Notes under the pieces: generated by a model
What the model was told of the DNA's origin: nothing
Seen by the model: only the letters and a program-made list of their open reading frames with translations
The model's database searches: none
Shown here: piece by piece, positions 31,401 to 59,726 of the stretch
How the letters are laid out: each line of letters begins with the position of its first letter
How positions within the stretch are numbered: position 1 is the stretch's first letter
DNA from: Branchiostoma floridae
Lineage: Eukaryota; Chordata; Leptocardii; Amphioxiformes; Branchiostomatidae
DNA length: 64,000 bases
Direction of reading: 5' to 3'
Assembly: GCF_000003815.2 (NCBI RefSeq)
Contig: NC_049979.1
Location: 24,846,255-24,910,254, forward strand
Position numbers and translations under genes: made by a program

Positions 31401-34400
31401 TCTGGGTGTTTAATGCTTCCTGACAGAGAACGCCGTGAGTGTTAACATTGTTTACATTTACCTATTGCCGAACCCAAGATGAAGATAGCCCCTGTTCGAT
31501 TTACTGGACTTGATTTATGTACATTCTATAACGTTACCGACATTCTATTTCAAATGAGTCATTTACAGTTTATCAGATATTCCCTCCCAGTGAAACAACA
31601 CCCCTAATCTTAAATGTGGCATAGTCCTCAACTAATGACAGCTTTGCTACCAAAATCGTCTTTTATTTGTCTGTCGTCATTACCTCTTTTGTAACGGTAA
31701 ATTGGTAATTAATCATGAATCGAGGGATAAAGTCGTCTGGGTTGATGTGCTTTGATAAGCGCTTTGGTGATGTTAGTGGCGGGGTTGGAGCAGGAACCGG
31801 GCAATTTGCAGATATGCCATATAGGGTGATTGCACGTGATGCACAATCATCCATTACTTGTTTGAATCCATAATCTAGAGAAGTTATAAAATCTGCATGT
31901 GTATTACCTGACCACACACGACGTAATTTCATAACCAACTTATTCAGTAACATTCTTCTTTAATCATGCAGCATGAGACGATATCAACGCCACAGATACC
32001 TGAGTTCAAACACCCAGTATTGTGCATCGGCACCTCCCAGAAGTTAGGAGAAAAGGGAGAGTATCCGTTGATTTTTTAGTGATGCATATCGTCGTTTTTG
32101 TGTGAAACATTAAGCCAGGCGTTTTCATCTTTCTACCAACTGTTCTTCACTCTTTTATATTCAACAATTCTCTATTCTATAAAGCTCGGCCCCATTTATG
32201 ACACATTTACATCAACTTGGCGCCTCTGACTTTGATCTTACTGTTGTGACTTTGATCTATCTAAAGCTACACTCACTTCCGAAGCTTTAAGATTACTGAT
32301 AGACACATGGAAAGGAATGTAGAAAAGAATGTGACATTTGCACAGCGCGCTTTACTGACATTTCATGCAGGGTGATGTGGCACAATATAGCATAACTTCG
32401 ACGACGCTCCTTGGGCGTTGAGGTGAGATTGACATTTGCTACAAGGGTGGAATGCTTCGGTACATGTGACATTTAGATAAGTAGTGCGACTGTGACGTTG
32501 CAATCAATCGCTATACAACAGTTACAAGACTGACAATAAAAATATCATTGCCATGACGACGATTGAGGGGCACAACAATTCAGCTCAGATCAGAAATAGA
32601 CTGGAGCTTTCCTGTCGCACTATCCCTGGCATAATATACTAGCCCACCTGTAACATAACCCTACAGCCAGCAAAAATGTACTATCCCTGGTACAGCACAA
32701 TGGTCTGCCAGTAACCTAAACCTACATCTGAGCACTACAGTGTGTAGTAGAGAATAAAAAATAAGGAAGAACCAACTGTTTCCATCACTTCTGTCGTTGA
32801 ATGATTTTCTTGCACCTAACCCACATGGCTGTCCTACTTCGTAATATTCCAGTCCTTGGATAGTATAATAGGCCTTGAACAATTATATTTGGCTCTGAAT
32901 ATGATAACCATTTGGATGCCATCATTCAAGATGATGACCTCTATATGAAGTATTTCCTGTCTGCCTGTGGCGTATGGCTTGAACAAGCTCTAGAAAAGAA
33001 AATGTATCCTTCATAACATAACATAACATAACATAACATAACATAACATAACATAACATAACATAACATAACATAACATAACATGATCCATTGTGCAGAG
33101 TTTCCCTGTCTACCACTTAAGTTTCTTGCATACCCAGCATACTGCATTGCTCACTCACTCGTCCTCTTGCACAAGGTGCGTAGAGCCAACTGATTTCACT
33201 AGGGTCCTCCACCATCCTCTGTTTGTCGCTGCAAGCTGCGCCTGCTGCATACTGCATTCCTGTGGAAAAATGCCTGTGCAATTCATAGAATTTTTGCAGA
33301 CTGAACGCAATATATACCACTTGACGACTCATCTGAGGCGTCGTCAAAAACGATACACAGAGTCCAATTGTAAACGATAGTAAAAAAAGCACGTCACGTA
33401 TAAACACCACACAGTTTGTACTGTCATGTATTCACATTTGGAGCTATCATTGGAGAATGTATCGCTAGTGTGCATTTCAGGCTGTACATTCCATTACTTT
33501 CTTACCCTAGAGGCCTGGCTATGTTAGTGCAGTAGGGGGCAGGGTAGATTCCCGGAAATCTACAGCTTTATTTACCGTAATGAAAATGGTATCATTTTTT
33601 TCTGTCTGTGTGTCTGTGTTTCCGGATATTTGTGGTCAGCATAAATTAAGAACTTCCGTACGGCTTATTATCCATCCATGGCTGACAGCCAGTCATCTGT
33701 CATCTTAACCAAGGCAGTTGTTGTCGAGTGATTAGGACGATAGGCCTGTTGTGCAGTCGACACAATATTGTTAATGGTTACATAGTGCTGTCCAGTAGTC
33801 ATTTGTACCAAGTTTGTTTGGTGGAGTCGGATACTCTGCCAAACAGATTCCTTTGTAGCCAATTAGACCATTGTTTTGAGTTTTAACGGATAATCGGCGC
33901 GGGTCCGTGTTCAGGTCCAGAACATGGGTCTTACAAACAAAGGTTCAAAGCAATCATAAGTACTGGCATGGTTATCTCGCCTGTTTGCCGGCTCTACGAG
34001 TCAGGCTTTTTCGAAAATCATATTTTGCTTTTTTGGGATGAAATGCTATCAAGAAAAAATGCCATAAGACAAAAATCATATCATAAGGATTAAATCATAA
34101 GCCTGCCTTTCTGTTCGACTTGTCCCCATGGTTATGGTTATGGTAAACTGACCCGAGACCGGCGAGAGATGAGACCTGATCTAATTATGAACTCACGAGT
34201 ATGTAGCCATCAAATAAATGCATGCATCACCTGTGCGTGATGCTGAATCAGCCACATGGAAAACATTGCCTTGAAGGCTCCTCTACGGGCGTGCTGTTCT
34301 CTGGCTGCTACTGTGAACAGTTGCGTCTGATGTAGTTTCTCTTTTCGTAAACATCGACAATATCAGGGAAAACTGAAACCATCACAACAGGCTAAAAATG

Positions 34401-37400
34401 TATGAATCTTTAACGTCATTAGTAGAAAAAAAATGGTCGTGATGAAGTCTGCTATGGGGGCAATAAAAATCGTACGACGATGGAGAAACTTTGAACATGT
34501 TCAAAATCCATTTCAGCTCTATTTCTGTCATAGGAGGCTCCCCGATTTACTATGATTTACCTGAGATTGACGCAGGTACGCTCTTATGACCTCATCGTAC
34601 GATGCACTACGATTCTTGTGACCACGGCTTCATGTATTTAAACCATTGCTTCCGATTCTTCTCCGACTTATGACGTACTGCGCTTATACCGCACATAAAA
34701 CCTCCATCGCAGTAAATCGTACTATTCTTGTGACCGGGGCCTTGCGGGGTGACATACCCTTTCGTTAGCTGATTACAAGACGGGAATGCCAGGTCTCCCG
34801 TCCGAGTGAATGGTGTAAATCCACGTATGGCTGATGCGAGACGGAGGTTCGCCAAGCTTCCATCTGGGTGATTTGAAGTGAATCATCAACGACAGAAGGA
34901 TTTGCACCATTGCACACCGGGGCATGTCCTTTCTCTTTTTCGAAAGGTGTGGTGGGTTCTTTAACGTGCCTGTGGTGTGGCTCTCCCTAAACACGGGGCT
35001 TGCATTTAACGTCCTATCCGAGGGACGGGCCTAGCCGAAGCTAGGTACTCATTCTCAACCTAGTGAAGGGTAGAAAGTGCCTTTCCTACGGGCACAAGGT
35101 CGGCGACACGGCAGAATTCGAACTGGAGACCTCTTGGGCCCAACACGCTGCCGATTGCGCCACGGAATCCCACAGCATAATATATATTGCACCATTGCAC
35201 ACCGGTTTATAATACCGTGAAAGTATTATATAGGCAGTATTAAGCTCTCTTGGTCAAGGGTTTGGATGAAAGGAGGAATTCCTTGTGTTGAAATCTCTCA
35301 TAGCTCAGAAGTGCACAATGATATTTAGGGATTTTGAGCGGGAAGGGCTTTATCCCTCCGACAATGTCATCAATGCATGGATTGATTCATAGATGGATCA
35401 AAGACGACTTAGTCTTGGACGGTCATAAGGGACGAATGAGTAGTTTTGTGCATCTCCAATTTATTGTGAAGCATGTTGATCGTGTTTCTTCCTGTCGTCA
35501 GAAGTACTATCTGCAGTGATGTCTGATGAGCATGTGATGACGATCCGGAGCAAACTCCACAAATCACGAGAAAAGGTTCAAATGAAGTTAAATTTATAAC
35601 CTGTCCAACCCTTCAGCGTTTTGGCTAGAAATCCACGATAAGGTGCTAGTTCATTAGCCCATGTCGTCTTGTAAGAATTTAATGCAGACAGTCGTGGTGC
35701 AATATCAATGACTCCAAGCCCATTCCATGCGCCAGTTGAAGATCCTATCAGCAGAATGTTATTTGTGCAAATCGTATCAGGCAGTTTCGGCTGAGTATAC
35801 AAGCCAGATAATATTAGTTCCTGGCGCCTTCAACGAAATTGGATTGCCCCGTTTCTCCAGAAAGAAGATACCCCGGATGAAGACACTCGACGAAGCAAAT
35901 GCCGTGTCGTAAACAGTCATTGCCTGTCTTTAAAGGGGCATTCCACTCCAGAGGCGAGTGTTATGTTCTGATAGATAATATTTTTTGGGGATACAAATGC
36001 ACCCGACTTTTCGCAAAGTTACCTCATTTGTCTTTTCGACAATAATCCTTTCCTAAATCCAAGTACCCACATATGGACCCGCTTCTAATCACGGTACTGC
36101 GCCGTATATGATTCTGCGACTTCTGTCACACTTTCTCGCTAACAGTTGTGGGGAAAAGCTTGATAAAGCAGTCAAGGGCCAATTACACATTTAGAGAGAG
36201 ACAAAAATGTTTGAAGACTGCCTGCCACTTAAGTATAAGAAGTTGAAAGTAGGTCAACGTAAAATGGCGGCGCTAAAACTGCTTTAAAATAAAAAAAAAT
36301 GTTGGAATACAGAAATTTGGTCACCTTTTATAGACCATTCTGCTTTTATACATGGACAAATATTAATAGTCACGTGATCAGAGTAACTGAATCGTCACTC
36401 CTGAAGAAGGTCGACGGAAGTGCGACTGAAAATTCGAGGTGAGAATAATTTGTGTTGTATGACAGTTGAAAAACTTCAATATAATTGAAACGTGTTGGCT
36501 GGCCGTTCCGATGACGTTAGTGCACACACACAGTCTAAACAGTGATCGTAAAACATCATAGTATTGAAATTTACCGTCCTGTTCCCATGGTCAGAGTCAC
36601 GTCCTCACCCACCGGTGCACAATTGGAAGGGTCATCAGGGGCATTCAAGAACTCGTTTGCTACCCCGCATTTAGGCTTCAATTTGTGCTGAATTTGACCA
36701 AACAAAGTTGATTCATGCATGATTATTTATTTTCTGAGGACTTATAATACTCACTTTTAGAGTGGAATGCCCCTTAAGATAACGGTCGATACCATTTCGA
36801 AAACGGTCGTTGCCTTTTCACCAGTCGATGCCAATCTTAGCTGTATTTAAGGGACGGTGCATTATATATAGGCTATTGGTATACTCATACTGACAATACA
36901 TCAGTATGTACAAGGAGGTTGATATTTAAAAAGGATTATACTGTTCTTAATAAGGAATATTCAACCAAAATAAAATTCCTTCAGCTATATTTATGAGCCT
37001 TTGTATCAAAGTTATTACTACCTACGTTCAAATACGTGAAGGACAGACAACACCTATATAGTCGTGCGATTTTTATCGTTGTGGGCAAAGGTTGTCTTTA
37101 GACATTTGTTCAGAATATTGCGGGACACCCGCGGCACAGGATTCCATCGCGGTGCGTGCGTGACCCACAGTGACCTCTTGCTCGCAAAACAAAAATGGCG
37201 GAAGAATTCGTTATTGCCATAATGCAGAAGATTATCATCTTTTGCTTGCAAACAAACATTGTCCTATAGATATGACGCAGAGTACGTCAACAAAGGCTGA
37301 CATCCTGAGGCCCGCACATATAATAGTTGTCACGGTCTAAAGTGGGCCTAAAGTGTATAAAGAAAGATTAACTCAAAATATCGCGGTACCTTTAAAGTCC

Positions 37401-40400
37401 TCCATAGAAACAGTGTGGCGGTGCATAGCTATTCTTGACCTGGGACAAAACCAATTGCAAGACGCACCTTTAGTAAAATATCACAACATGCAATGTTTGG
37501 CTTAATTTGAGTGCTTGTACATGGTATTGATAACCTAATTGCCCACAGTGTATTTTATAATCAAAAGCATTTCTTATTGCCATTGAAACTGTCGAGATTC
37601 TTTTAATACCAAATCTTTACATATAAAAAGCCCCAGCTGTTCTGGAAACCGCATCCGTACAAATAGATCGTACATAAAAAGCGCCAACGTCAACAATAAC
37701 CGTTGCAGACGACGACAAATTACTTGCGACGGGTTCCCTACCAAGTGATGAACGATCCAAAAGCTTTCAATCGATACAAAGATTTTTGCCATCTCGACCG
37801 TAGAGACATAAACCCTGTACCGACAGAACCAATCAATATCTTCAGCTTGTTCCGTGGACTGCAAGTTCAGGTCGATATAACATTCCCTTTGAGTTGTGCT
37901 TCAGACGTACCATCAGTATGGGAGCTTAACGAAGGGCTTGTTGATACTTACGAGTTCTTTGAGCCGAAAAATCAGTGAGGCAAATTAAGACAAATGATCA
38001 ATTTTCTTCAGGGCCAGCATTCAATGACAGTGACCCTATCAATTTTTTTTTCGTATGGCGAATTTTAAACCAGAGTTCCACGAACACATACCTTCGCAAA
38101 ATAAACCAGGTTTGTTATGTAGAATGATGTACATTTTATTTTATATGTTATTTGATAAAGTCACACAAATTATTATCAACTAGAATTCGGCGACCTCATA
38201 CCTCCTTGAAATTTTGTAAATGTTATGCAAATGACTTACTAGGAGGCCCAAGATCATTAGGTTTGGTGCGGACAATACCGACCTGGTCCGGGCAAGCAGC
38301 CCACGATGATTATGACCATAGATATGAAAGATCTCTGGCAAGAACCGTGGGACCGTGTAGCGCAGTGGTATATTGTTCGCCTCGTGACCGAGAGGTTGCG
38401 GGATCGAATCCGCCTGCCGTGTTGCCAGTCTTGTGCCCTTGGGAAAGGTACTTAACACGACTTTCCTCACTTTACTCAAGTGAAAATGAGTCGTCCCTCG
38501 GATAGGACGTTAAATGGAGGTCCCGTGTCTGGGGAGAGCCACACCCCGGGCACGTAAAAGAACCCGCCACATGTGCGATGGTGCGATGTGAGCGGATCAA
38601 ACCATTCCGGCCAAAATGGGGTAGGGAATTTCCCGAGCAGCCTCGTAACCCCTGCTTCGCCTATTGAGTCAGTGAAGTCAAGCTTGCCTAAGCTTGATGT
38701 TTCTGACTTATGGAGAAGAAATGCTACTATATGTACAGTTATCGCTATGGGCCGCTCTTCATCTTCATGATGGTAAGATCAGGCCCTACGAACCTGATTT
38801 AGAAAAAAAAAACAGTCCCCTGAGACTTGAGAATCTTTCAGGTTTCAGGGCAACCCTACAAAGGTGGAGTAGAGATACAATTTTTGTAACGGGAGAATCT
38901 AATACAGTAACTTTTTATTTATATGCCTCTCAGAGTCTGTTTACTTTAACTACTTTTCACATTTTTCCCTTTCCCTCCCTCACTCCCACTTTGTGCGTCT
39001 TTACTTTTTGTACTCCATTTTGTACTCCTTTTTGAATTCCATCTTTTCATTCCTCACCTTCTTTGTTTCCGTGCAAGGTAACTTCTTTCCATTTTTCTAC
39101 TTCCATAGTGTACTTGTGTCTATTCCCTTTCTTGTATCCCAGTAATTCTAATCAAATATTTCCCATTAATTATGTAAATTAGGTTATCATTTGCATAATT
39201 TATATGCAAATTGGCATTTCTCTCTATCTCAGCTACATATGTGACAAGTTTGAAAGTCCTATCATGGAATGCAGTGGATTTAAAAGCTTTCCTCATTAAT
39301 TATGCAAATTAGCTGTAGATTTGCATAATCAATATGACATTATGTAAGTCATCACTTAAGCTAACCACATACCAAAAATCATGACGAGTTCTCGAGTTAT
39401 TCTTGTTTGACAGGAAATAGGCGCCTGCAGTTCCAAGAAAGCCGCTAGGGAGTCCACACACATAGCACTCATAGCATTTACACTTACTCTCTGTCCCAAG
39501 GGCTATCTACCACTCAAAATCACAGCCACAGCATGTCCAGAACACGAGATATCATGATGGAAGTTCCGCTGCAGTACCTTAGCAAACCGCTATCGAACTT
39601 GACCTTCGTATTCACGACCCCTACCCACCTACCAAATATCATCAGGATCCATCCAAGGCTTCTCGAGTTATGCTGTTAACAGAAGTACACGCCTAAAGAT
39701 GTCATCTAAGATTGATTATGCCTTCTTTTCAGGAAACGGCACTATTGACTTCGACGAATTCGTCGCGATAATGTCGAAAATTGTGAAGGGGGACGAGGGG
39801 ATCCCTGAGGACGAGGAGAAAGAGCTACGAGAGGCCTTTAAGTTGTTTGACAAGGCCGGAAACGGCTACATCAGCGCGTCCGACCTCAGACAGGTGCTGA
39901 ACTGTCTGGGACAGGATCTTACCGAGGAAGAAGGTATGTCAGGAGCAGCTAAGGCAACATAAGTTTATGTGCTTATTCCTGCTTTATTTGTAAAATCATT
40001 TATAGAATTTCAAACTACACTAGAGATATGAAATATAGTTAATTTTAAGCAAGCGTTAGAACATGGCCACTACCCCTCAGCCAATGGGAGCTGTCAATTA
40101 CTGTGATTATATCCACATAGTGCAGAAAAAGCGTGGTACTATGAAAAAATTTGCATAAAATAGTACCACACTTTTTCTGCACCACTGGTCGGCTAATTTG
40201 AAGCAGTATCACTGGAACTGTGCTAGGGGATTAGAGGATTAAGGGAGGAAGACACAATGCCATCAAAGTAAACAGTTTAATCAAAACAGACTCAGATCTT
40301 CACATAATAGCAGTGCAACAGAAAGCATTCTGCCTGTAATTATACACCCAACTTTGTGTTGCATGCACACTTCTACAATCTTTAACGAGTAAATAAAAAA

Positions 40401-42293
40401 ATCAAAATCAAAATAACTGTTCTTTCCTATAGTCTAATGTCACCAATAATGCTAAACTCTACAAATACTTTAATCAAGAATTTAATAAGAATGCAAATTA
40501 ATGTTATCTTCTAATGTCTAAATATTAACATACTGTTGTTAGCGTCAAGAGTGAAGTAAACATAACTGTCAGCATCCAGTTTCAGATAAGATGTTTTCTG
40601 ACATTTTAGCACTAATTCTGCCGGGTCCTGATTGGTGTGTTCAAAAATTCGTACTTTCCCCGAACTATCGTAGAGTGGAATTTGTTATCACCAAGCACAG
40701 TAGGGTTATCTTCTTTGGATAGTCTTCCGGTTCTGTAGATCATGTTCTGGATATACTATGGTCAAACGTTTTGTGTGGTAGATAGATCTTGTGATCATGA
40801 TCATGAAGAAGTGGCATAAGTTTGGGTTCGCTAATTCAGGAGTTGAAGGGGTATTTTTGTCGAAATTTCTGAAGAGGATAACTTGAGCCTTTCTAGATTT
40901 ATTGTTTCATTGTTTCATCTCATTGATCATACAACTAAACTTGCGATTAGCAGAATCTATTCGACTTATGATGGTCTTCTTAACCAAAAATACAGATTCA
41001 GTTTCATTTATTTATTTAAGCAGGCAAGTACACATCGCCTACTGGCGAGGAAGACCTTAGGGGCATGTTCGGACATGACGCACCCGCCATGGCACACGAG
41101 GGGTCTATATATACATATATAGACTTATATGTATATAATATATGTATTGTATGTGTATATCTTTTTGCTGGGCAGAATTCAATGTTAGCAAGTACCTTTA
41201 CATAATCTACACATGGTGGTGTAAAGCTGTAACCAACGTACACATGTCACAAGTAGGTAATTTCCACCATTTACCACAATGGAATTATGCCACTTCACAT
41301 TATTTATGCAAATTAGGCCCTCATTCCATAATTTGTATCTGTTAATGTTTCACCTTACCTAAATTATATGTTACGTGTACAAAAGTGCTATTATGAAAAA
41401 AAATCATTTATTATGCAAAAGCCGTCTTAATTTGTATAATTTTAATGTCACTGTGTACGTCTCTGTCTAAACTATCTACATGCCGAATATCATGGAAATT
41501 TGTCGTTCCTTTGTATAATTATCCCAATCCCCCAGCTATTCCAGAGCAAGCAGCTAGGGGGAACCAAAATACGCCACTTCTTCCTTACATCCTACCTACC
41601 TACCTTACATCAAAAGCCACCAATTCATTAAGACTATGAGATCGCTGAACTCAAGCTCATTAATTCATCCATCCATTCATTTGATCATTTGTTCGTTTGT
41701 TCACGGGCTCTCCATCCACAGATCTAGGCTTAACGTTAAAGCGAACTTTATTGCTTTCTCTTCAGTAGACGAAATGATCAGTGAAGTGGACGTTGATGGC
41801 GATGGTAGGATTGACTACGAAGGTAAGTAAGACTTTTCGCTCGGCTGCACAGTTACTGCCGGAACAACCACAGCAAATCTGTGGAATTGGGTATCGTGAC
41901 CCTAGATATCGATTACTGAAGCGTTTTGATGAAGGAGAATTGTTTCATGCTGAAGGTCATGAAATGGGAGACATGCAACAGTTAGCCAACTGTGCGCTTG
42001 TACGTGACGTTTCAGTCACCATATTTGTGGTTGAACCTTGAAGAGTCAGACCTCTAATTCCATCATCATCACCATCACAATCATCATCACCGCATGTTTG
42101 GTGCGTAGCACCGAGGCAGGTAGTCATTGTTTTGCATGTGTATAATACCATAAATACGATAGTTTACAATATCATATTTAAACAACAGCTTCTAGGTTCA
42201 ATCAGTCAAATATTATCTACCTGATTGACTATCCCGGTTCTGCTGTTTACAGAGTTCGTGGCAGCCATGTGTGACAGAACGGCGGAGAAGTGA
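22290..42293 (+). CDS. calmodulin-like four-EF-hand protein, 5' exon missing
   Basis: Join of 22290-22433, 39733-39933, 41766-41822 and 42253-42293; phases agree at every junction and the frame closes at TGA. It encodes a small cytosolic Ca2+ sensor of the calmodulin/troponin C family. Loops EF1 ([12 protein letters not shown]), EF2 ([12 protein letters not shown]) and EF4 ([12 protein letters not shown]) are canonical. EF3 ([12 protein letters not shown]) has Ala at position 3 and Asp instead of Glu at position 12, so it probably binds Ca2+ weakly. The linker between the two lobes ([16 protein letters not shown]) is several residues longer than in calmodulin, so this is a paralogue, not calmodulin itself. 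The first and last introns seen here fall where vertebrate calmodulin has them. The codons for roughly the first ten residues must be in an upstream exon I could not find. Candidate AATAAA signals occur at about 42715 and 42842. Confidence 0.9.
22481..22820. mobile_element. hAT-like MITE, 340 bp, inside the calmodulin-like intron
   Basis: Terminal inverted repeats cagggctcgaaat and atttcgagccctg, with CTAGA directly outside both ends (22476-22480 and 22821-22825). The interior repeats the palindromic words cctgcatatgcagg and acctgcac. It begins 47 bp after the EF1 exon donor. The flanking match is five bases, short of the usual eight, so superfamily assignment rests on the termini. Confidence 0.7.
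23525..23624. other. assembly gap, 100 N
   Basis: A round 100-N run usually means a join of unknown size. It cuts a hAT MITE and lies within the calmodulin-like intron, so gene length here is uncertain. Confidence 0.99.
23625..23992 (-). mobile_element. hAT MITE copy truncated by an assembly gap
   Basis: Related to 58185-58617: ccggtacagtgtaccagt next to the gap, ttattggaccggt, ggacctggacctgatcc and a terminal ctgtaccagtacccaccc. The other terminus is lost in the adjacent 100-N gap. Confidence 0.65.
24228..25010 (-). pseudogene. degenerate LINE reverse transcriptase
   Basis: Reading leftwards: [48 protein letters not shown] (RT motif), [15 protein letters not shown] (the catalytic FADD box near 24540), [25 protein letters not shown] (RT end) and [19 protein letters not shown]. 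Interrupted by stops around 24505-24610. R1/RTE-like endonuclease-reverse transcriptase type; clade not resolved. Confidence 0.78.
25130..25700 (-). repeat. dispersed repeat copy 1 with C2H2-like coding remnant
   Basis: Matches 60985-61590 in the same orientation: acaaatgattcgt, gatgttggcggtgt, attcagtgcattcagccca, cactgtccagcgtagcacaa, caactagcgatggagcg. On the minus strand 25375-25139 reads [20 protein letters not shown] then [21 protein letters not shown]-x2-C-x12-H-x2-H is zinc-finger-like. Probably a decayed transposon gene. Confidence 0.6.
25855..27480 (-). repeat. ATGCAAAT-family repeats, two adjoining copies with a 190-N gap
   Basis: Repeated ataactcgagaa, gatatttggtaggtgggtag, gccccctagcggcttcctaa and attatgcaaatcagg..atttgcataatta blocks. 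N from 25984 to 26173. A terminus-like aactctagtt occurs near 27220 and further atgcaaat words near 27439-27470. Confidence 0.55.
25984..26173. other. assembly gap, 190 N
   Basis: Run of N inside an ATGCAAAT-family repeat. Confidence 0.99.
27481..28859. other. no gene established
   Basis: Holds a 63-codon ORF (28034-28225) with an ideal start context, discussed separately, and a poly-C run near 28293. Otherwise unassigned calmodulin-like intron sequence. Confidence 0.45.
29149..29289. mobile_element. TA-flanked CGCGGT-type MITE nested in the hAT MITE
   Basis: ctgtaaaaccaccgcgaac at one end and gcatttacag at the other, with TA on each side. It shares the cgcggt/accgcg words with 5350-5545. 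A 2-bp TA target suggests Tc1/mariner mobilisation. The hAT sequence resumes on both sides. Confidence 0.65.
29521..30456. mobile_element. inverted-repeat insert nested in the hAT MITE
   Basis: Begins aggtgtgccgggggcgaa and ends gctgtcacacct. Inside the ends is an inverted repeat of about 25 bp (gggggcgaaatcactagcg near 29530 and its complement near 30390). It interrupts the expected gttttgtac..ggtgtacc sequence of the hAT end. Superfamily not assigned; the interior shows no gene. Confidence 0.55.
31039..31395. mobile_element. TTAA-flanked MITE, 357 bp (piggyBac-like)
   Basis: Begins aggtaacctaagcaatatt and ends aatattgcttaggttgcct; the imperfect inverted repeat extends about 75 bp at each side (gaataaggcatattgacatc and its partner). 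TTAA lies immediately outside both ends (31035-31038 and 31396-31399), the exact piggyBac target. No coding sequence. Confidence 0.75.
31400..33011. other. no feature recognised
   Basis: Intron sequence. A 96-codon minus-strand ORF (31663-31953) has no recognisable domain. Confidence 0.45.
33012..33084. repeat. (ACATA)n pentanucleotide microsatellite
   Basis: About fourteen near-perfect acata units. It produces the MLCYV repeat ORFs on the minus strand. Confidence 0.95.
33665..33780 (-). pseudogene. LINE reverse transcriptase fragment
   Basis: [20 protein letters not shown] followed by [10 protein letters not shown] matches the RT block usually read as QxGFRPGHSTTTAL..DDW. Only about 40 codons remain. 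Confidence 0.6.
33795..33935 (-). mobile_element. fragment of the hAT MITE
   Basis: Shares aaacagattcctttgtagc, a gaccattgttttgagt block and gttcaggtccag with 23860-23950. No termini are visible. Confidence 0.45.
34770..35173 (-). mobile_element. tRNA-derived SINE (left-arm copy)
   Basis: Reverse-strand counterpart of 58991-59400: box B complement gaattcgaac near 35114 and box A complement near 35155. A few substitutions separate the two. Confidence 0.7.
35935..36773. mobile_element. TTAA-associated MITE, left-arm copy
   Basis: Terminal inverted repeats ggggcattccactc / gagtggaatgcccc; TTAA is adjacent on the right and one base away on the left. Contains cctgaagaaggtcgacgg..tgcgactgaaaattcgagg. 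The right arm has its counterpart at 56150-57032. No coding sequence seen. Confidence 0.65.
38070..38230. repeat. two abutting ATGCAAAT-family termini
   Basis: gagttccacgaacacatacc..aaataaaccaggtttg (one terminus type) is followed by aattcggcgacctcatacctcc (the other type). The same pair appears reversed at 54100-54240 in the right arm. Confidence 0.5.
38345..38811 (+). mobile_element. tRNA-derived SINE present only in the left arm
   Basis: Box A-like tgtagcgcagtggta and box B-like gcgggatcgaatccg form the head; the body contains cttgggaaaggtacttaac, cctcggataggacgttaaatg and gagagccacacc. The end is an A-run (agaaaaaaaaaac). In the right arm the flanks ggcaagaacc and agtcccctgag are directly joined, so this is an insertion of about 467 bp. 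Confidence 0.75.
39130..39683 (+). repeat. ATGCAAAT-family repeat immediately before the EF2/EF3 exon
   Basis: Contains two hairpins (attatgtaaattaggttatcatttgcataat and attatgcaaattagctgtagatttgcataat, given here only as words near 39170 and 39300) and the gccgctaggg and catcaggatccatccaagg modules. Ends about 50 bp before the exon acceptor. Confidence 0.6.
39733..39933 (+). CDS. calmodulin-like gene, exon with EF2 end and EF-hand 3
   Basis: 201 nt with acceptor ccttcttttcag and donor gtatgt. It covers the rest of EF-loop 2, the inter-lobe helix and all of EF-hand 3. Vertebrate calmodulin has an intron at the start of loop 3 (after FDK); this gene lacks it and instead has one just before VDEM. 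The ATGCAAAT repeat family ends about 50 bp upstream of the acceptor. An almost identical copy lies antisense at 52870-53070. Confidence 0.92.
40119..40184. repeat. 22-bp inverted repeat hairpin
   Basis: gtgcagaaaaagcgtggtac is followed, after an AT-rich loop, by gtaccacactttttctgcac. The right arm of the large duplication breaks off inside the same sequence at the gap edge. Possibly a tiny MITE. Confidence 0.6.
40700..41640. repeat. degenerate ATGCAAAT-family pieces with an embedded LINE tail
   Basis: 40720-40890 shares the ctatggtcaaacg..gtggtagatag module. 40985-41100 is the complement of a LINE 3' end (cttaaataaataaatgaaac). 41280-41640 has attatgcaaattaggccc and similar words. Lies in the calmodulin-like intron. 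Confidence 0.45.
41766..41822 (+). CDS. calmodulin-like gene, exon with EF-hand 4 loop
   Basis: 57 nt, acceptor ttctcttcag, donor gtaagt. It completes a Val codon split by the intron and encodes [18 protein letters not shown], a canonical EF-loop 4. It ends in phase 1 with the G of the second loop Glu codon. Confidence 0.9.
42253..42293 (+). CDS. calmodulin-like gene, terminal coding exon
   Basis: 41 nt after the acceptor tgctgtttacag. It encodes [13 protein letters not shown] and TGA, the equivalent of the short calmodulin terminal exon (EFVQMMTAK). The position of the preceding intron is conserved with vertebrate calmodulin. Confidence 0.88.
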
Positions 42294-43080
42294 CATCACA
42301 AAGCATCATTTAGCACTAGCATGATACTGACCCACCTAATCGCATCTCCTCAACGGGCTCAAATCAGGGCTTTACATCTTGTAAGGATTTGTTGCAAGTG
42401 ATATGTTGGTAAAAGTGGTTGTATTTTTCGTCAAATTGTATTTTTCGTCAAATTGTGTGTCGTCAAATTGAATTCGTATATACAATGCATGTACACATTG
42501 GTCGGATATGATATATGCATCTATCTGCTGATGGATAATGATACAATACAATGAAATCAAATTAGGGATATCTCAGCGAATGAATCCTCGTTTTTTTTTC
42601 AAAATGATGTGTTGAATTAGATTAAGCCGTCATATGCAAGTGAAAATAAGAATGTGTAAGCGGAAAACCATAGCTATTGTTGTGGAAGAATCCGAAAATA
42701 TATTACTGGTGATGAATAAATATGATAAACAGATTCAACCGCTACCATCAACAGCTATATTCATACTGATTTTTTCTTACATTTGGATGCGGTACGTGTA
42801 ATTGTTCTGTATGATTTGAGAATAATGTCTCTGTACATATAAATAAAAAAAATATTACCTCGACTTTCATTGACTTTTTGATGTAGAAACAATAAATCAA
42901 TTTGAAACGTAACTGTGTGCACCATAGTCCGGTAATGCCTGATTACTCCGCATTTTGTTGCGCTCATATGTCCAGCCATGTATGCGCATTTAGTCAATAA
43001 AACACAAAGAAACAAGTGAAGATGTGTCATGTGCATACATGCTACAATGTTGTATGTTTATAACACAACAGTCTGGCTGT
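42294..43080 (+). other. probable 3' UTR and downstream of the calmodulin-like gene
   Basis: AT-rich, with AATAAA near 42715 and 42842 and no ORF of note. Confidence 0.5.
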
Positions 43081-43130
43081 TTCTCGTTGTTACCTCCAGG
43101 AAATATCCATGAAGGTTATATTTTCTCTAG

Positions 43131-43192
<62 letters not shown>

Positions 43193-43392: not shown

Positions 43393-43564
<172 letters not shown>

Positions 43565-43708: not shown

Positions 43709-43830
43709 TTAAAATACACGAGGATTGTCAACAGCAATACCATTTATAACAAAAACCTACTAGAAACAGACATGATTGCCATCTCAGAACACTAGCTGTT
43801 TCCTGAGGCCCTAAACANATCACAGACGAC
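43709..43830 (+). pseudogene. LINE endonuclease N-terminal fragment
   Basis: RIVNSNTIYNKNLLETDMIAISEH then a stop and LFPEA resembles the start of APE-type endonucleases (..DIIAISEHWLFP..). Contains the lone N at 43818. Confidence 0.4.
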
Positions 43831-48100: not shown

Positions 48101-51100
48101 CGATCGACTCGGTGGATCATCCAAAGCAAGTAGATTTTATGGATGACATCCTCCATCCTCTGCAGACTGCAAAAATAATGAGATAGGGTGAAAAAAAAAC
48201 AAGTAAAAGTTTCAAAATAGACAAATAAACATTGTAACAATAATTGAAGCGACAAAACATGGCAGTACAGCTACAAGACATTGCCTCCATGAAAAATATA
48301 GGTATAGTTTTTGGAGTGTCTGCATGTCTGTCTGTGTTTCCGGATATTTGTCGTCGGCATAACTCAATAACCTATTGATGTATTACGATGGTATTTGGTA
48401 TGTGTGTAGGGATCGGGAAGACAAAGGTCAAGGTCGATTTTGGGCCCCCTGGTATGTTACCTTGGTACTGCAGCAAAACTTTTCATTTTTTTCTATCTTT
48501 TGACCTGGAAAAGCTATGGTCTTCATTTTTTTGTGGCAGATAGCTTATGATGTAAGAAAGAAGTGAAGTATGTTTCGGCCCTCTAGCAGCTTGCTCTGTA
48601 ACTGCAGGGGCATGTTTTGGCATTTTTTCCCCAAGCAGCATAACGGAAATAGGAAATATGGATTTCCATGATATTTATTATACAGGTACGTTTGACATAT
48701 CAATATTTGAGATGTACATATTGAAATGCAAATTACGCAAATATAGACTTCCGCGGACTTCCGCTGTTAACGGCCATCTTTCAATCCGCTATCTTGGATT
48801 ATCAAACTGAAATGTCTTAATAAGATACATCTTTTTCAACAAATAACCCTGAAACCCCATGGAAAGGGATTGGAAAACGTTGAATGTTTTTGTAAGCAAA
48901 TATAAAGTTGTGATGAAATCTGACAAAGAAAAGCTGATCTTATCATGATATGGTCGGCCATGTTGCATTTTGAGCAATTACGTCATCTCATTATTTATAA
49001 TATCTAATTATAAATGTCATAGTGAGATATGTTAGATATTAAAGATATATGAAAACAAGTGTAGTTTAGCAAGAAAATCTTAAAATCCCATTGTTTAAAC
49101 CAAAATTAGTAAATTTTGTAAAATATGCCCTCAGAAACCAGTTGTTGTGGCAACACGAAAAAATGTAAACTTATTCCTACGACGTCAAAGTTGCCCCCCC
49201 CCCCCCCTGAATATGCAGCCCGATGGCAAAACAAAAGTTCCATATGCACGTAGGCTTCTACGGCGTGTCTGTGTGTCTAGATTCCGTACGATTTCATACG
49301 GACGCGGTACTTTTCACTTACGGATCCCAAAAGATTTTACACACCACGCAGTTGCACGTAAGGCGGATTGTGTCCTCAGCTTTACTATAGTATTCATTGA
49401 GGATCGGACAAAAAGCAAAATGCTCAAACACACCCTCTTCTCTAAAACGCCAATAAAAATCATTGCACCAAGTAAAACACAATATACAAAAGAAAATACA
49501 ACATGAAGAAGAGTTCGGAGACCTCCTACCTCCATGAAATATTCTGATTATGCAAATGACTTGCATATCTGCATAATTTATGCTTGGTTATATACACCTT
49601 TGCATAACTTACATAGGTCACAATGTTGACAATCCAATCATTTACTACGTTTACTACATGAATTAGGACACATTCACATTGATTATGCAAATTAAGGACT
49701 TACTTGCATAATTGGTACCTACTTATCTTCCACCTGTCACAAATTACATATGTTACATGTATTTGAGTCCTATAAAGAAAAATGCTGGAAATATAGATTT
49801 TCCTCATTAAAGGTGCAAATTAAGTCCAAATTTGCATAATTTGCACTTCATTATGTACATCTCTGGCAAACATACCTATATGCTAAATATCATAGAATTT
49901 CATCGTTCCTATGTTCCGTTATGCTCCTTGGAAGATTTTGACAAATTGCCCCTGCAGTTCCAAAGCAAGCCGCTGGGGGGCCCAAACCTATATACCATTT
50001 TCCTTACGTCACAAGCTATCTGCCACCAAGAAATCAAGACCATAGCATGTTCAGGTCAAAAGATACAAAAAATCTAAGTTCTGCTGTAGTACCAAGGTCA
50101 CATACCAGGGGGCCCAAAATCGGCCTTGACCTTTGTCTTCCAAACACCTACCCACATACGAAATATCATTACAATCCATTCAGAGGTTCTAAAGTTATGC
50201 TGACCACAAATATGCGGACACACATAGACACACAGACACACACAGACACAGACACACCAAAAACTATACAGTCAAACCTGCCAAAGACGACCAACCCGGG
50301 GACCGGAAAAAAGCGGTCGATTTGGACAGGTGGTCGCTGAGAACAGTATCGACTTAAAACATGCCCGATGCAAAGTATAAATGGTTTCCGTTGTGTTTAA
50401 TGGCAAATAGCAAGCACACTGCACGCACGCAAAGAAGCGAGGTCTTTAATGTCAAATACAACATGCACACTGTAAACTGTAAATTTAACCCCAAAATCCG
50501 ACACAAACTGGCCGATTTCGGCACAAAATCGCGCTAGTTGTCATTCAAAAATCGATGAAAACCTCAATTTTGAAAATAATACGGTCGTTATGGGTCCCAA
50601 TTTGGGCCGGTCGCGGTCGCCTTGGCCAGGTGGTCGTTGAGAAAAGGTCGGTTAATGCTTGCGTCAATGGGAAAATAAATCGGGACCGAGAAAAAGCGGT
50701 CGAAATGGCCAGGTGGTCGCTGAGAAGAGGTGGTGGCTCGGGCAGGTTTGACTGTACCTCTATTTTTCATGGAGGTAATAACGAAAACAATCAAGGGAAA
50801 ACAAAGCAGGTTGATCACAAAAATCATGGCAATTAATCTCAGAACAAAATTTAGCAGCTTTTTAGTTTTGATCTAAGAGATTCCATATATGTACATTAAC
50901 TACCTTTTCCTGAGAACGATTTAAGAGATAATCTAAGGCATTGAATTTTCCTTACAGGATCCGACGGATCTGGAGGATCCGGAGCCACTATTATTAACAA
51001 CTATACTTCAGTGAACGTCAAGGTCGGTCTTGGACTGGGCATACCCCTTGGTCTCCTGGTCCTCGCCATCCTTATCTATGTTGTCAAGAAAAAAATTGGC

Positions 51101-51103: not shown

Positions 51104-52559
51104 GGTGTCGTCCCAAATGCATTGTTTGGCTCTATGGTTATGTCATAGTGTTCTTCAAAAGCATCAACGTGCATGCATTTCATGACTTTTGAGTAGATTT
51201 AGTCGATGGCGTTGTGTGCTTTTGAGTTTTTTTGTAGATGATATATGATGCTGAAGCCAACAGATTCTTGACAAATATTCTGTCCTTGAAAACATGCTTC
51301 TGCTTTGTGCAAATATCCTATTATGCAGGCTGTACAAAATTTCGTCTAATGTTATCTAGATCTCGGTCATTCGAAGTATATTTGTCGTCAAGAGCAAACT
51401 TTAGACATCAATATTTATTGATATATGCCTGTTTGTGTACAAATTGAGTACTATTGACTATACATCAGGTATTTTCTGAAACCATCCGATGCAATCGACA
51501 ATTATTTATCCTTTCTTAGCTAAAACTACGTAGTCAAACAGCATAAGACAGTTGCAATGAAATTCAATGAACATGTTAGGATATACTTTGTGTGTTTTTG
51601 CAATGCTCGCCTTATTGTCATATGATGTAAATCTATAACCTTGTCGTATTTGGGGTTTGTTAACCACAAAGAGTTGTTGTGGGGAAAAAAGAAATACGTG
51701 ATGTATGTAAATGTACAAAAAACGTGTGTAAATTGAACTTAGAAATGATGGGGGATAGAAAAGTATGTTCACAGTCATGCATACGAACATGGTTATTTTC
51801 TATTAGGTTAGCTTGGCATGTTTTTTTTAATGAAATATAACAATGATGATACAACGATGATATGACTTGCTCTGGATCTAGAAATTCCTAATTTTCATTA
51901 GGAGGAGGGGGGGGTCCAGCAGGGTGAACCCAGACAGTGCTGATGTCATGGCCCCATGATCACATATCTGCAACTATTTACTAGTTAACTCCACCATAAT
52001 TGCTTCAACATCATCGTCGTTTTCACTATAATTATGAAATAGTCACACCTACAAACTTACAGACATATCTAAAATTTAGTTCTTTCTGCGTACCATAAAC
52101 AAATGAGTCTAACTAGTGCGGCGGAGTAGGGACCTCTCTCCCAGGTCAAAACAAATGCTAAAAGACAGAGTCTCCCAACGGGATCTCTACCGGTCGGACC
52201 AGCGATTCTGCCAGATGGCACTCTGATCTCCACTTTGAAGAAGATGGATTACCGCTGTAAGACCAGGGCCCACATGTCCGACATGACACGCCCACAAAAA
52301 TTGTGACGTCATATGAGCAGGCATATACTTTGAACCAATTGTGTCATAGGTAATCCCTCATGATTCCAGATGATGACACCTGTTCAAAGTACAGAATGAC
52401 ATAATGAACGGGTTGTTTAGTCACTTTCCGGATCCATTTCATTAAGCACGCATTTCCATTCAGACACACATTCACCTGAAGACATGAAACGACAAGAGTG
52501 TCTCTGGGCGCAAACCGCGCACCAGAATCTGGGTAAGTAACAATATTATCTTGTCAACT
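51104..52559 (+). other. 3' UTR/flank of the TSP1/EGF gene
   Basis: No AATAAA signal was found by eye close to the stop. No gene recognised up to the gap. Confidence 0.4.
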
Positions 52560-52659
52560 NNNNNNNNNNNNNNNNNNNNNNNNNNNNNNNNNNNNNNNNN
52601 NNNNNNNNNNNNNNNNNNNNNNNNNNNNNNNNNNNNNNNNNNNNNNNNNNNNNNNNNNN
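52560..52659. other. assembly gap, 100 N, left border of the inverted copy
   Basis: The homology to 34.1-40.1 kb starts directly after it. Confidence 0.99.
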
Positions 52660-52869
52660 TATGACCGTATTACGCTTTTCTGCACTATGTGGATATAATC
52701 ACAGTAATTGAGAGCTCCCATTGGCTGAGGGGTAGTGGCCATGTTCTAACGCTTGCTTAAACTAACTATATTTCATATCTCTAGTGTAGTTTGAAATTCT
52801 ATAAATGATTTACAAATAAAGCAGGAATAAGCACATAAACTCATGTTGCCTTAGCTGCTCCTGACATAC

Positions 52870-53070
52870 CTTCTTCCTCGGTGAGATCCTGTCCCAGACA
52901 GTTCAGCACCTGTCTGAGGTCGGACGCGCTGATGTAGCCGTTTCCGGCCTTGTCAAACAACTTAAAGGCCTCTCGTAGCTCTTTCTCCTCGTCCTCAGGG
53001 ATCCCCTCGTCCCCCTTCACAATTTTCGACATTATCGCGACGAATTCGTCGAAGTCAATAGTGCCGTTTC
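52870..53070 (-). pseudogene. antisense second copy of the calmodulin-like EF2/EF3 exon
   Basis: Reverse complement of the exon at 39733-39933. Translation is identical; one synonymous difference (GATCTC versus GATCTT, Asp-Leu) was seen. Acceptor and donor are also conserved. No copies of the EF1, EF4 or terminal exons accompany it, so it cannot encode a complete protein here. It lies inside a contig bounded by 100-N gaps, so it is probably the other allele of the exon misplaced in the scaffold rather than a decayed gene. Confidence 0.85.
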
Positions 53071-53109
53071 CTGAAAAGAAGGCATAATCAATCTTAGATG
53101 ACATCTTTA

Positions 53110-54240
53110 GGCGTGTACTTCTGTTAACAGCATAACTCGAGAAGCCTTGGATGGATCCGGATGATATTTGGTAGGTGGGTAGGGGTCGTGAATACGAAGG
53201 TCAAGTTCGATAGCGGTTTGCTAAGGTACTGCAGCGGAACTTCCATCATGATATCTCGTGTTATGGAAATGCTGTGGCTGTGATTTTGAGTGGTAGATAG
53301 CCCTTGGGACAGAGAGTAAGTGTAAATGCTATGAGTGCTATGTGTTTGGACTCCCTAGCGGCTTTCTTGGAACTGCAGGCGCCTATTTCCTGTCAAACAA
53401 GAATAACTCGAGAACTCGTCATGATTTTTGGTATGTGGTTAGCTTAAGTGATGACTTACATAATGTCATATTGATTATGCAAATCTACAGCTAATTTGCA
53501 TAATTAATGAGGAAAGTTTTTAAATCCACTGCATTCCATGATAGGACTTTCAAACTTGTCACATATGTAGCTGAGATAGAGAGAAATGCCAATTTGCATA
53601 TAAACTATGCAAATGATGACCTAATTTACATAATCAATGGGAAATATTTGATTAGAATTACTGGGATACATGAAAGGGCATAGACACAAGTACACTATGG
53701 AAGTACAAAAATGGAAGAAGTTACCTTGCACGGAAACAAAGAAGGTGAGAGATGAAAAGATGGAATTCGAAGTACAAAAAGTTAAGACGCACAAAGTGGG
53801 AGTGAGGGAGGGAAAGGAAAAAATGTGAAAAGTAGTTAAAGTAAACAGACTCTGAGAGGCATATAAATAAAAAGCATTAGATTCTCCCGTTACAAAAATT
53901 GTATCTCTACTCCACCTTTGTAGGGTTGCCCTGAAACCTGAAAGATTCTCAAGTCTCAGGGGACTGGTTCTTGCCAGAGATCTTTCATATCTATGGTCAT
54001 AATCATCGCGGGCTGCTTGCCCGGACCAGGTCGGTATTGTCCGCACCAAACCTAATGATCTTGGGCCTCCTAGTAAGTCATTTGCATAACATTTACAAAA
54101 TTTCAAGGAGGTATGAGGTCGCCGAATTCTAGTTGATAATAGTTTGTGTGACCTTATCAAATAACATATAAAATAAAATGTACATCATTCTACATAACAA
54201 ACCTGGTTTATTTTGCGAAGGTATGTGTTCGTGGAACTCA
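53110..54240 (-). repeat. ATGCAAAT-family repeat, right-arm counterpart
   Basis: Reverse complement of the 38070-39690 stretch without the SINE found there. Same modules: tttggtaggtgggtagg, ctccctagcggc, attatgcaaatctacagc and the terminus pair at 54100-54240. Confidence 0.6.
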
Positions 54241-55218
54241 TTTGTCTTAATTTGCCTCACTGATTTTTCGGCTCAAAGAACTCGTAAGTAAGTATCAACA
54301 AGCCCCTCGTTAAGCTCCCATACCGATGGTACGTCTGAAGCACAACTCAAAGGCAATGTTATATCGACCTGAACTTGCAGTCCACGGAACAAGCTGAAGA
54401 TATTGATTGGTTCTGTCGGTACAGGGTTTATGTCTCTACGGTCGAGATGGCAAAAATCTTTGTATCGATTGAAAGTTTTTGGATCGTTCATCACTTGGTA
54501 GGGAACCCGTCGCAAGTAATTTGTCGTCGTCTGCAACGGTTATTGTTGACGTTGGCGCTTTTTATGTACGATCTATTTGTACGGATGCGGTTTCCAGAAC
54601 AGCTGGGGCTTTTTATATGTAAAGATTTGGTATTAAAAGAATCTCGACAGTTTCAATGGCAATAAGAAATGCTTTTGATTATAAAATACACTGTGGGCAA
54701 TTAGGTTATCAATACCATGTACAAGCACTCAAATTAAGTCAAACAATGCATGTTGTGATATTTTACTAAAGGTGCGTCTTGCAATTGGTTTTGTCCCAGG
54801 TCAAGAATAGCTATGCACCGCCACACTGTTTCTATGGAAGACTTTAAAGGTACCGCGATATTTTGAGTTAATCCGCCGGTTTCAAGATCGAAGAAATTTC
54901 TGGTCGCCATATTAGATTAGTGTTAGGAGTCTGCATGGAGAAGTTTTCGATACCTTCTTCAGTCCACAGGCGACAGTAAGGTCAAACTGTGGATGTTGTA
55001 ATTAATTATAAGTGGCTCATAGTTTATAGCATAGCACAATTCCATTGTTGTCAACTTATGATACATCTATACTACGTTTACTATCCATCAAATTGCTTCG
55101 ATCTTGAAACCGAATAACTCGAGATAACTGGTAAATAGTTAGGACTTGCTGCGTTTTTCTTACTTATACATGTATAACAATGTATCAAGAGTGCCACACA
55201 AGGCTGTTGTCCCGTGTA

Positions 55219-55704
55219 NNNNNNNNNNNNNNNNNNNNNNNNNNNNNNNNNNNNNNNNNNNNNNNNNNNNNNNNNNNNNNNNNNNNNNNNNNNNNNNNNN
55301 NNNNNNNNNNNNNNNNNNNNNNNNNNNNNNNNNNNNNNNNNNNNNNNNNNNNNNNNNNNNNNNNNNNNNNNNNNNNNNNNNNNNNNNNNNNNNNNNNNNN
55401 NNNNNNNNNNNNNNNNNNNNNNNNNNNNNNNNNNNNNNNNNNNNNNNNNNNNNNNNNNNNNNNNNNNNNNNNNNNNNNNNNNNNNNNNNNNNNNNNNNNN
55501 NNNNNNNNNNNNNNNNNNNNNNNNNNNNNNNNNNNNNNNNNNNNNNNNNNNNNNNNNNNNNNNNNNNNNNNNNNNNNNNNNNNNNNNNNNNNNNNNNNNN
55601 NNNNNNNNNNNNNNNNNNNNNNNNNNNNNNNNNNNNNNNNNNNNNNNNNNNNNNNNNNNNNNNNNNNNNNNNNNNNNNNNNNNNNNNNNNNNNNNNNNNN
55701 NNNN
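55219..55704. other. assembly gap, 486 N, inside the inverted copy
   Basis: Falls where the left arm has 37221-37371. The sequence at 54873-55218 just before it has no left-arm match. Confidence 0.99.
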
Positions 55705-56149
55705 TGCATTATGACAATAACGAATTCTTCCGCCATTTTTGTTTTGCGAGCAAGAGGTCACTGTGGGTCACGCACGCACCGCGATGGAATCCTGCGCCGC
55801 GTTTGTCCCGCAATACTCTGAACAAATGTCTAAAGACAACCTTTGCCCACAACGATAAAAATCGCACGACTATATAGGTGTTGTCTGTCCTTCATGTATT
55901 TGAACGTAGGTAGTAATACCTTTGAGACAAAGGCTCATAAATATAGCTGAAGGAATTTTATTTTGGTTGAATATTCCTTATTAAGAACAGTATAATCCTT
56001 TTTAAATATCAACCTCCTTGTACATACTGTTGTATTGTCAGTATAATGTATATATATATAATGCACCGTCCCTTGAATACAGCTAAGATTGGCATCGACT
56101 GGTGAAAAGGCAACGACCGTTTTCGAAATGGTATCGACCGTTATCTTAA

Positions 56150-57032
56150 GGGGCATTCCACTCTAAAAGTGAGTATTATAAGTCCTCAGAAAATAAATAA
56201 TCATGCATGAATCAACTTTGTTTGGTCAAATTCAGCACAAATTGAAGCCTAAATGCGGGGTAGCAAACGAGTTCTTGAATGCCCCTGATGACCCTTCCAA
56301 TTGTGCACCGGTGGGTGAGGACGTGACTCTGACCATGGGAACAGGACGGTACATTTCAATACTATGATGTTTTACGATCACTGTGTAGACTGTGTGTGTG
56401 CACTAACGTCATCGGAACTGCCAGCCAACACGTTTCAATTATATTGAAGTTTTTCAACTGTCATACAACACAAATTATTCTCACCTCGAATTTTCAGTCG
56501 CACTTCCGTCGACCTTCTTCAGGAGTGACGATTCAGTTACTCTGATCACGTGGCTATTAATATTTGTCCATGTATAAAAGCAGAATGGTCTATAAAAGGT
56601 GACCAAATTTCTGTATTCCAAGAGGCTTCAAACATTTTTTTGACATCGGTCATTAAAGCAGTTTTAGCGCCGCCATTTTACGTTGACCTACTTTCAGCTT
56701 CTTATGCTTAAGTGGCTATTAACTTAACTCCTTATCTCAAGATAAGACAGTCTTCAAACTTTTTTGTCTCTCTCTAAATGTGTAATTTGCCCTCGACTGC
56801 TTTATCAAGCTTTTCCCCACAACTGTTAGCGAGAAAGTGTGACAGAAGTCGCAGAATCATATACGGCGCAGTGCCGTGATTAGAAGCGGGTCCATATGGG
56901 GGTACTTGGATTTAGGAAAGGATTATTGTCGAAAAAACAAATGAGGTAACTTTGCGAAAAGTCGGGTGCATTTGTATCCCCAAAAATATTATCTATCAGA
57001 ACATAACACTCGCCTCTGGAGTGGAATGCCCC
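56150..57032. mobile_element. TTAA-associated MITE, right-arm copy
   Basis: Counterpart of 35935-36773 in reverse. It has about 45 extra bases, including ccttatctcaagataaga, so the two copies have diverged by indels. Confidence 0.65.
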
Positions 57033-57057
57033 TTTAAAGACAGACAATGGCTGTTTA

Positions 57058-57873
57058 TACCCCCCTCACATTATATACGATCTTCGGACGTTCTTCGCGA
57101 TCGCAGGAAGGTCGGCTGATTTTAAGATCTTAAGATGGTCTTGCGTATTTTTCGCCTCAAAACTGTCCCACTCACATATACGCGAGGCTCGTGAGATCGA
57201 CGGTGAATAAATCTATGATAATAAACCTCCCATGACCTCTTGCACGCGGACAAGGTAACACAAAACGTTCCTAAAAAAAGGCAAGAGATCAATAAATGTT
57301 GCTTATTTTGTTGTCGTAATCTTTTTAACCAATGAATGGAATGCGCGAGCATAATAGAAATGACGCAAGAAAAGAAAGTGTGTCACAAAGCCAGCCTACA
57401 TACTGCCACAGCGGCCACAATGTTAGAATTACCCTCACATTCCCAGAAATTCAATATTTGTAAACAAACGGAAGTCGGGCGAACGTCGCCCGAACGTTGC
57501 CCAACTGACGGGCGTTCGCCATCCGATTTGCGCTCGATGATTAATAACTATGTCTTTGCTCGTCTATCGGTCTTCAATCGTTGGATTGACGCAAGACTAT
57601 TGACCGATACCCTTGCAAGGTACGCACGATTTGTACGCACAATCTGCGACTCGGTAACGAGCTGTGCGATTTTGGAGATTTCCTTCGACTAGTCGCATAT
57701 GTTAAGAACATGTTTCGCTGCACCGCGACCGTCGTAAGACACCTGAAAACTGCCGGCGATCCCTAAAAATCGCAAGATGATCGTGAGAACACCGGACGTC
57801 TTACTCACGAAAATGTCAATCAGAGTTCGTAAACTAGTCTTCCGATCGAATCGCGCCTATTGTGAGGGGGGTA
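57058..57873. mobile_element. PIF/Harbinger-like non-autonomous element, 816 bp
   Basis: Ends tacccccctcaca and tgtgaggggggta form a 13-bp terminal inverted repeat. TTA flanks it on both sides (57055-57057 and 57874-57876). The left arm shows the empty site with one copy (TAA at 35910-35912 in the other orientation). A 3-bp TTA/TAA duplication is typical of PIF/Harbinger. The 118-codon ORF inside (57336-57692) resembles nothing I recognise. Confidence 0.85.
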
Positions 57874-58184
57874 TTACGACACGGCATTTGCTTCGTCGAG
57901 TGTCTTCATCCGGGGTATCTTCTTTCTGGAGAAACGGGGCAATCCAATTTCGTTGAAGGCGCCAGGAACTAATATTATCTGGCTTGTATACTCAGCCGAA
58001 ACTGCCTGATACGATTTGCACAAATAACATTCTGCTGATAGTATCTTCAACTGGCGCATGGAATGGGCTTGGAGTCATTGATATTGCACCACGACTGTCT
58101 GCATTAAATTCTTACAAGACGACATGGGCTAATGAACTAGCACCTTATCGTGGATTTCTAGCCAAAACGCTGAAGGGTTGGACA

Positions 58185-58617
58185 TAGGGCTGGGTACCGG
58201 TACAGAAAATTCAGGTCCAGGTCCGGTTCAGGTCCAACGGGTCAGGTCCAGGTCCGGACCTGAACCTGGACCTGATGCAGTATCACTCATACCAATGGTC
58301 AATTTCACTACAAAGAGATCTGTATGGTGGAGTATTAGACTTACACTGGCGTTTTAAGGTCCTTCAACGCTAAATGCACATGTACGATTGGCTGTTAAAA
58401 TTGGTAGAAATTACTATAAACTCTACTCTACTTCACTCTTGTTATTTTCTTCCACCTGCAAGCGCCAAAACGTGTGAATGCGTGATAAAATAATCTGTTA
58501 TTTTTTTAATCGGTCCAACATCCGGTCCACCAAATTTTTTCAGATCCGGTTTTTCTGGACCGGTCCAATAAGAAAAACCGGTTTTGTACCGGTACGCTGT
58601 ACCGATACCCAGCCCTA
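58185..58617 (+). mobile_element. hAT MITE, 433 bp, 8-bp target duplication
   Basis: Terminal inverted repeats tagggctgggtacc / ggtacc-type...taccagccctagroup: the left end reads tagggctgggtaccgg and the right end gatacccagccctag. GTTGGACA occurs on both sides (58177-58184 and 58618-58625). The left arm carries the unoccupied site once (TGTCCAAC at 35602-35609). An 8-bp duplication is the hallmark of hAT. The interior is made of caggtcc/ggacctg repeats, with no transposase. Confidence 0.88.
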
Positions 58618-58990
58618 GTTGGACAGGTTAACTTCATTTGAACCTTTTCTCGTGATTTGTGGAGTTTGCTCCGGATCATCATCACATGCTCATCAGACAT
58701 CACTGCAGATAGTACTTCTGACGACAGGAAGAAACACGATCAACATGCTTCAGAATAAAATGGAGATGCACAAAACTACTCATTCGTCCCTTATGACCGT
58801 CCAAGATTAAGTCGTCTTTGATCCATCTATGAATCAATCCATGCATTGATGACATTGTCGGAGGGAGAGATTTCAACACAAGGAATTCCTCCTTTCATCC
58901 AAACCCTTGACCAAGAGAGCTTAATACTGCCTATATAATACTTTCACGGTATTATATACCGGTGTGCAATGGTGCAATATATATTATGCT

Positions 58991-59400
58991 GTGGGATTCC
59001 GTGGCGCAATCGGCAGCGTGTTGGGCCCAAGAGGTCCCCAGTTCGAATTCTGCCGTGTCGCCGATCTTGTGCCCGTAGGAAAGGCACTTTCTACCCTTCA
59101 CTAGGTTGAGAATGAGTACCTAGCTTCGGCTAGGCCCGTCCCTCGGATAGGACGTTAAATGCAAGCCCCGTGTTTAGGGAGAGCCACACCACAGGCACGT
59201 TAAAGAACCCACCACACCTTTCGAAAAAGAGAAAGGGCATGCCCCGGTGTGCAATGGTGCAAATCCTTCTGTCGTTGATAATTCACTTCAAATCACCCAG
59301 ATGGAAGCCTGGCGAACCTCCGTCTCGCATCAGCCATACGTGGATTTACACCATTCACTCGGACGGGAGACCTGGCATTCCCGTCTTGTAATCAGCTAAC
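58991..59400 (+). mobile_element. tRNA-derived SINE (right-arm copy)
   Basis: Head has a box A-like tggcgcaatcggcagcgtg and a box B-like gttcgaattc; the body reads gaaaggcactttctaccc, cctcggataggacgttaaatg, gagagccacacc and gcacgttaaagaaccc. The head would be transcribed by RNA polymerase III. It is not a functional tRNA gene because the body runs on without a cloverleaf end. The downstream limit is approximate. Confidence 0.7.
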
Positions 59401-59726
59401 GAAAGGGTATGTCACCCCGTAAGGCCACAAGAATAGTACGATTTACTGCGATGGAGGTTTTATGTGCGGTATAAGCGCAGTACGTCATAAGTCGGAGAAG
59501 AATCGGAAGCAATGGTTTAAATATATGAAGCCGTGGTCACAATAATCGTAGTGCATCGTACGATGAGGTCATAAGAGCGTACCTGCGTCAATCGCAGGTA
59601 AATCATAGTAAATCGGGGAGCCTCCTATGACAGAAATAGAGCTGAAGTGTATTTTGAACATGTTCAAAGTTTCTCATCTCTCGCCGGTCTCGGTTCAGTT
59701 TACCATAACCATAACCATGGGGACAA

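Follow-up and report, generated by a model that had tools for sequence, protein, structure and literature searches.

The calmodulin-like gene and the surrounding contigs

In the 64,000-nucleotide stretch of Branchiostoma floridae DNA analysed here (the window), a calmodulin-like gene runs along the forward strand, and one of its exons falls within a segment that is present twice, in opposite orientations. Numbered by the order in which they are seen in the window, exon 2 (22290..22433, +), exon 3 (39733..39933, +, within the left copy of the segment) and exon 4 (41766..41822, +) all have AG/GT borders and an EF-hand match. Exon 2 is in frame with exon 3, and the three exons, with exon 3 taken from the left copy, join into a single reading frame. 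The spliced product resembles calmodulin over the 134 residues given; its top-ranked match, 4il1, is a calmodulin fusion with calcineurin, and the best plain calmodulin chain is 6dae_A (E = 1.5e-48). Pfam identified EF hands in four of ten pieces, including each of the three exons, and assigned no family at E 0.001 to the other six.

A further copy of exon 3 is stranded on the reverse strand within the right copy of the segment (52870..53070, -), with both splice borders kept. It encodes the identical protein, the two versions being separated by one synonymous base in 201. When the exon proteins were searched against the entire window, exons 2 and 4 each gave a single full-identity match and exon 3 gave two, one in each copy, while the remaining matches to the exon proteins reflect the weak mutual likeness of EF hands. 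An earlier pattern search, which found exon 2 alone, was too strict to serve as a control. These results agree with the original prediction, according to which the right copy carries one isolated calmodulin-like exon and the left copy sits in the correct gene context: only exon 3 is found reversed, exons 2 and 4 are single in the window, and exons 2, 3 and 4 splice in frame through the left copy.

The layout of the contigs sets the two copies apart. The window contains three gaps of exactly 100 N (23525-23624, 52560-52659 and 59727-59826), four gaps of 983, 644, 190 and 486 N, and one single N. That gaps of 100 N occur alongside other sizes suggests two scaffolding stages, with the right copy probably having entered the second as a separate object. 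The right copy (52660..59726, -; 7067 bases) fills everything from the second 100-N gap to the third, the former of which (52560..52659) lies between the two copies on the same scaffold and the latter of which (59727..59826) bounds its other end, both being located by the gap scan. It also has an internal gap of its own (486 N, 55219..55704), at the matching place of which (37227-37365) the left copy is continuous, and 345 extra bases beside this internal gap (54874-55218) fall outside the aligned blocks described below. The left copy (34120..40134, +), by comparison, is contained in a gap-free contig of 26,386 bases (26174-52559), which continues unbroken past both edges of the homology. The 400 bases flanking each gap of the right copy on its far side (52160-52559 and 59827-60226) have no other match in the window.

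Similarity and differences between the two copies

The left copy and the reversed right copy form nine colinear reverse-complement blocks, with identities of 95.3-99.7% when gaps are included, which extend over 34120-40129 on the left and 59726-52676 on the right; default BLAST scoring carries the last block on to 40134 and 52672, respectively. The blocks span 4956 of 6010 bases of the left copy and 4927 of the right copy's 7067 bases, a total that includes its 486 N. Taken one block at a time, 75 of 4912 aligned columns carry a substitution (1.53%; 44 transitions and 31 transversions); 13 small indels add to these, and eight larger differences fall at the block joints. The pieces reported by BLAST contain 78 mismatches over 4981 alignment columns. 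An initial alignment of the two arms by MAFFT, with 181 mismatches in 5039 columns, was set aside for the block-wise count because it had forced together unrelated bases near the insertions and the internal gap, beside which its mismatches cluster (62 and 35 in two 250-base bins). Similarity by chance was ruled out by shuffling: in 20 pair-shuffled versions of the right copy, the longest match to the left copy was 12-26 bases. The geometry proposed beforehand, namely that 34119-40138 and 52660-59726 are reverse complements with substitutions and indels and that the second is bounded by two 100-N gaps, therefore stands, with all four ends correct within 0-16 bases and both gaps seen where expected.

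Two of the larger differences are insertions present in the right copy only. The first, of 433 bp (58185..58617, -), has inverted ends TAGGGCTGGGTA and an exact 8-bp target duplication TGTCCAAC, its empty site being found in the left copy at 35602-35609; from its ends and target sites we take it to be hAT-like, and relatives of it lie at 23626-23991 and 28985-29525 in the window. The second, of 816 bp (57058..57873, -), has inverted ends TACCCCCCTCACA and an exact 3-bp target duplication, TAA, with the empty site at 35910-35912 of the left copy; on the same grounds, it is presumably PIF/Harbinger-like. These insertion/empty-site pairs are biological variants and not read errors, although whether the copies that carry them are alleles is a separate question. 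Conversely, a block of 466 bp (38347..38812, +), which has a tRNA-like head and a run of A as its tail and which we assume to be SINE-like, is present in the left copy only, and no clear target duplication was seen for it. The same holds for three further left-copy blocks, of 308, 75 and 53 bp, which are absent from the right copy, and one block joint has 3 bases on the left versus 31 on the right.

At the edges of the homology, the outermost base of the right copy, 59726, already pairs with 34120 on the left. At the other end, homology ceases 12-16 bases before the terminus of the right copy, at 40129-40134 of the left, and these terminal bases, which have no match to the left copy, are the only end bases left unexplained. 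At this place the left copy contains a hairpin (40120..40182, +; z = -6.9, with 0 of 200 shuffles folding as well), in the first arm of which the homology of the right copy stops. Strong hairpins can stop an assembler. Because the homology of the right copy runs to or near both of its gapped ends, while the left copy is unbroken across the edges, the window contains no sequenced duplication junction, that is, no passage from the right copy into unique flanking DNA; on both sides it meets a gap.

Origin of the reversed copy

Taken together, the sequence makes it very probable that the right copy is a haplotig: the other haplotype's version of the left copy, inserted backwards beside its own allele. 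The left copy would accordingly be the retained allele, and the two would represent alleles of a single locus. The case for this reading rests on geometry, with both ends of the right copy at gaps and the left copy unbroken; a divergence of 1.5% is compatible with both alleles and young duplicates. Points against it are the 12-16 terminal bases unmatched in the left copy and the lack of a clear target duplication around the 466-bp block. As is typical of haplotigs, the shorter sequence is contained in the longer, with the nine blocks in colinear order, and an assembly gap (52560-52659) separates the copies on one scaffold. The suggestion of a backwards allelic contig made in the original prediction thus gains support from the gapped ends, the containment, the unbroken left copy, the insertion/empty-site pairs and a gene that reads in frame through the left copy only.

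This configuration has parallels in the literature. The portion of PMC9516828 that deals with false heterotype duplication names gaps between the copies as one of its signs, and haplotigs mislabelled as primary contigs are described in the corresponding part of PMC7203741, where the purge_dups authors also state that, to their knowledge, heterozygous overlaps are not handled by long-range scaffolders. With the cases described in these passages (PMC9516828, PMC7203741) the present one shares diverged copies on one scaffold with a gap between them, a shorter sequence inside a longer one and a partial gene falsely doubled. It differs from them in that they are defined by read depth and k-mers, while the right copy is known from its sequence alone, and in that it is reversed relative to the left copy.

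As to how such an arrangement could arise, the insertions, together with the small variants, would have broken the similarity so that the two alleles were not merged during assembly, leaving the right copy as a short stand-alone scaffold. The last scaffolding step would then have joined it to the nearer end of the contig holding its allele, in the wrong orientation and with 100-N joins. A join of this kind may have been made from Hi-C or comparable long-range contacts, which are a better guide to the position of a short contig than to its orientation: a short second-haplotype contig would be expected to have such contacts with the surroundings of its own allele and hence could be placed adjacent to it. 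Short contigs set in the wrong orientation in Hi-C scaffolds are described in the relevant section of PMC7672694, according to which orienting a contig becomes harder the shorter it is. The 7-kb object seen here, lying between 100-N gaps on the strand opposite its allele, resembles those contigs, although that Hi-C was used for the present assembly is something we infer.

The nature of the differences can likewise be compared with what is found between lancelet alleles. According to part of PMC4284660, alleles of the Chinese lancelet differ at 4.39% through SNPs and at 0.98% through small indels, and transposons appear to be the source of about 65-77% of their large indels; a passage of PMC12862219 puts lancelet heterozygosity at 3.2-4.2%. 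By analogy, the joint occurrence of substitutions, indels and differences due to mobile elements would correspond to the known between-allele pattern, although the 1.5% found here is below these lancelet figures.

The main competing explanation, which we regard as distinctly unlikely, is a real inverted segmental duplication, approximately 12.5 kb apart, by which a portion of the gene with exon 3 was duplicated and at whose edges the assembly broke. The similarity of the two copies is indeed real and long, and high-identity inverted arms with a spacer are what such a duplication would look like; moreover, duplicates of recent origin may show about 98% identity and may each have acquired separate insertions. 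Nevertheless, breaks caused by the repeat should affect both copies, whereas the left copy is unbroken through both edges, and the right copy contains nothing beyond the homology save the 12-16 bases opposite the hairpin of the left copy. In contrast to an inverted segmental duplication, its junction is not sequenced and one arm is gap-ended on both sides, while a separate inverted repeat in the same window (8774-12217), with arms 94.3% identical, was assembled gap-free. Were the duplication both real and young, an intact antisense exon 3 would lie downstream of the gene and could give rise to a transcript complementary to the mRNA of the calmodulin-like gene, a scenario that we judge very unlikely.

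An origin of the right copy in a third haplotype, in another individual of a pooled sample or in a close relative, followed by the same scaffolding error, appears extremely unlikely: a second and a third haplotype would presumably look the same by sequence, but the additional assumption of a pooled or mixed sample is called for by nothing examined. Finally, a homotype false duplication, in which one haplotype is assembled twice through sequencing errors, would fit the low divergence and the gap-bounded position, but was rejected as practically inconceivable, being contradicted by the 433- and 816-bp insertions, whose target duplications and empty sites make them biological differences.

The pair of copies is therefore most likely an assembly artefact of a well-known kind and not biology, and this has practical consequences. 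Left uncorrected, the right copy could enter an annotation as a partially duplicated gene with an exon in antisense, and tallies of duplications, inversions and calmodulin-like exons would come out too high. More generally, the pair may serve as an example of how sequence by itself can raise the suspicion of a haplotig, through gap-to-gap homology, containment and insertion/empty-site pairs.

Other repeats and reading frames in the window

The contig that begins after the first 100-N gap (23525-23624) opens inside a relative of the 433-bp element (about 23625-23991), and the join at this gap, which is spanned by the calmodulin-like gene, may have been broken by a repeat. The inverted repeat near the start of the window (8774-9762 and 11202-12217) has arms 94.3% identical over 1019 columns, with a spacer of 1.44 kb, on one unbroken contig. 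An open frame of some 79 residues is common to both arms and matches no Pfam family at E 0.1. Candidate origins of the repeat are a foldback element, an assembly palindrome and a real inverted duplication.

Open frames at 46035-48133 include an EGF-like stretch (hEGF, E = 0.057, below the cut-off) and similar units bearing the motif GRPVY, which have no Pfam match at E 0.001. At the relaxed threshold of E 0.1, none of seven pieces reached a curated Pfam cut-off, the two weak matches being DUF6594 (E = 0.091) and hEGF (E = 0.057), and Rfam gave no match in the window at its gathering threshold. An AAAG array of 42.5 copies lies at 43395-43564, with a single N nearby at 43818. Lastly, a dispersed repeat family occupies 13753-14428, 26216-26650 and 39152-39690, with about 75-85% identity between sites; it is partly tandem, with a period of 245, and is present in the left and right copies alike.
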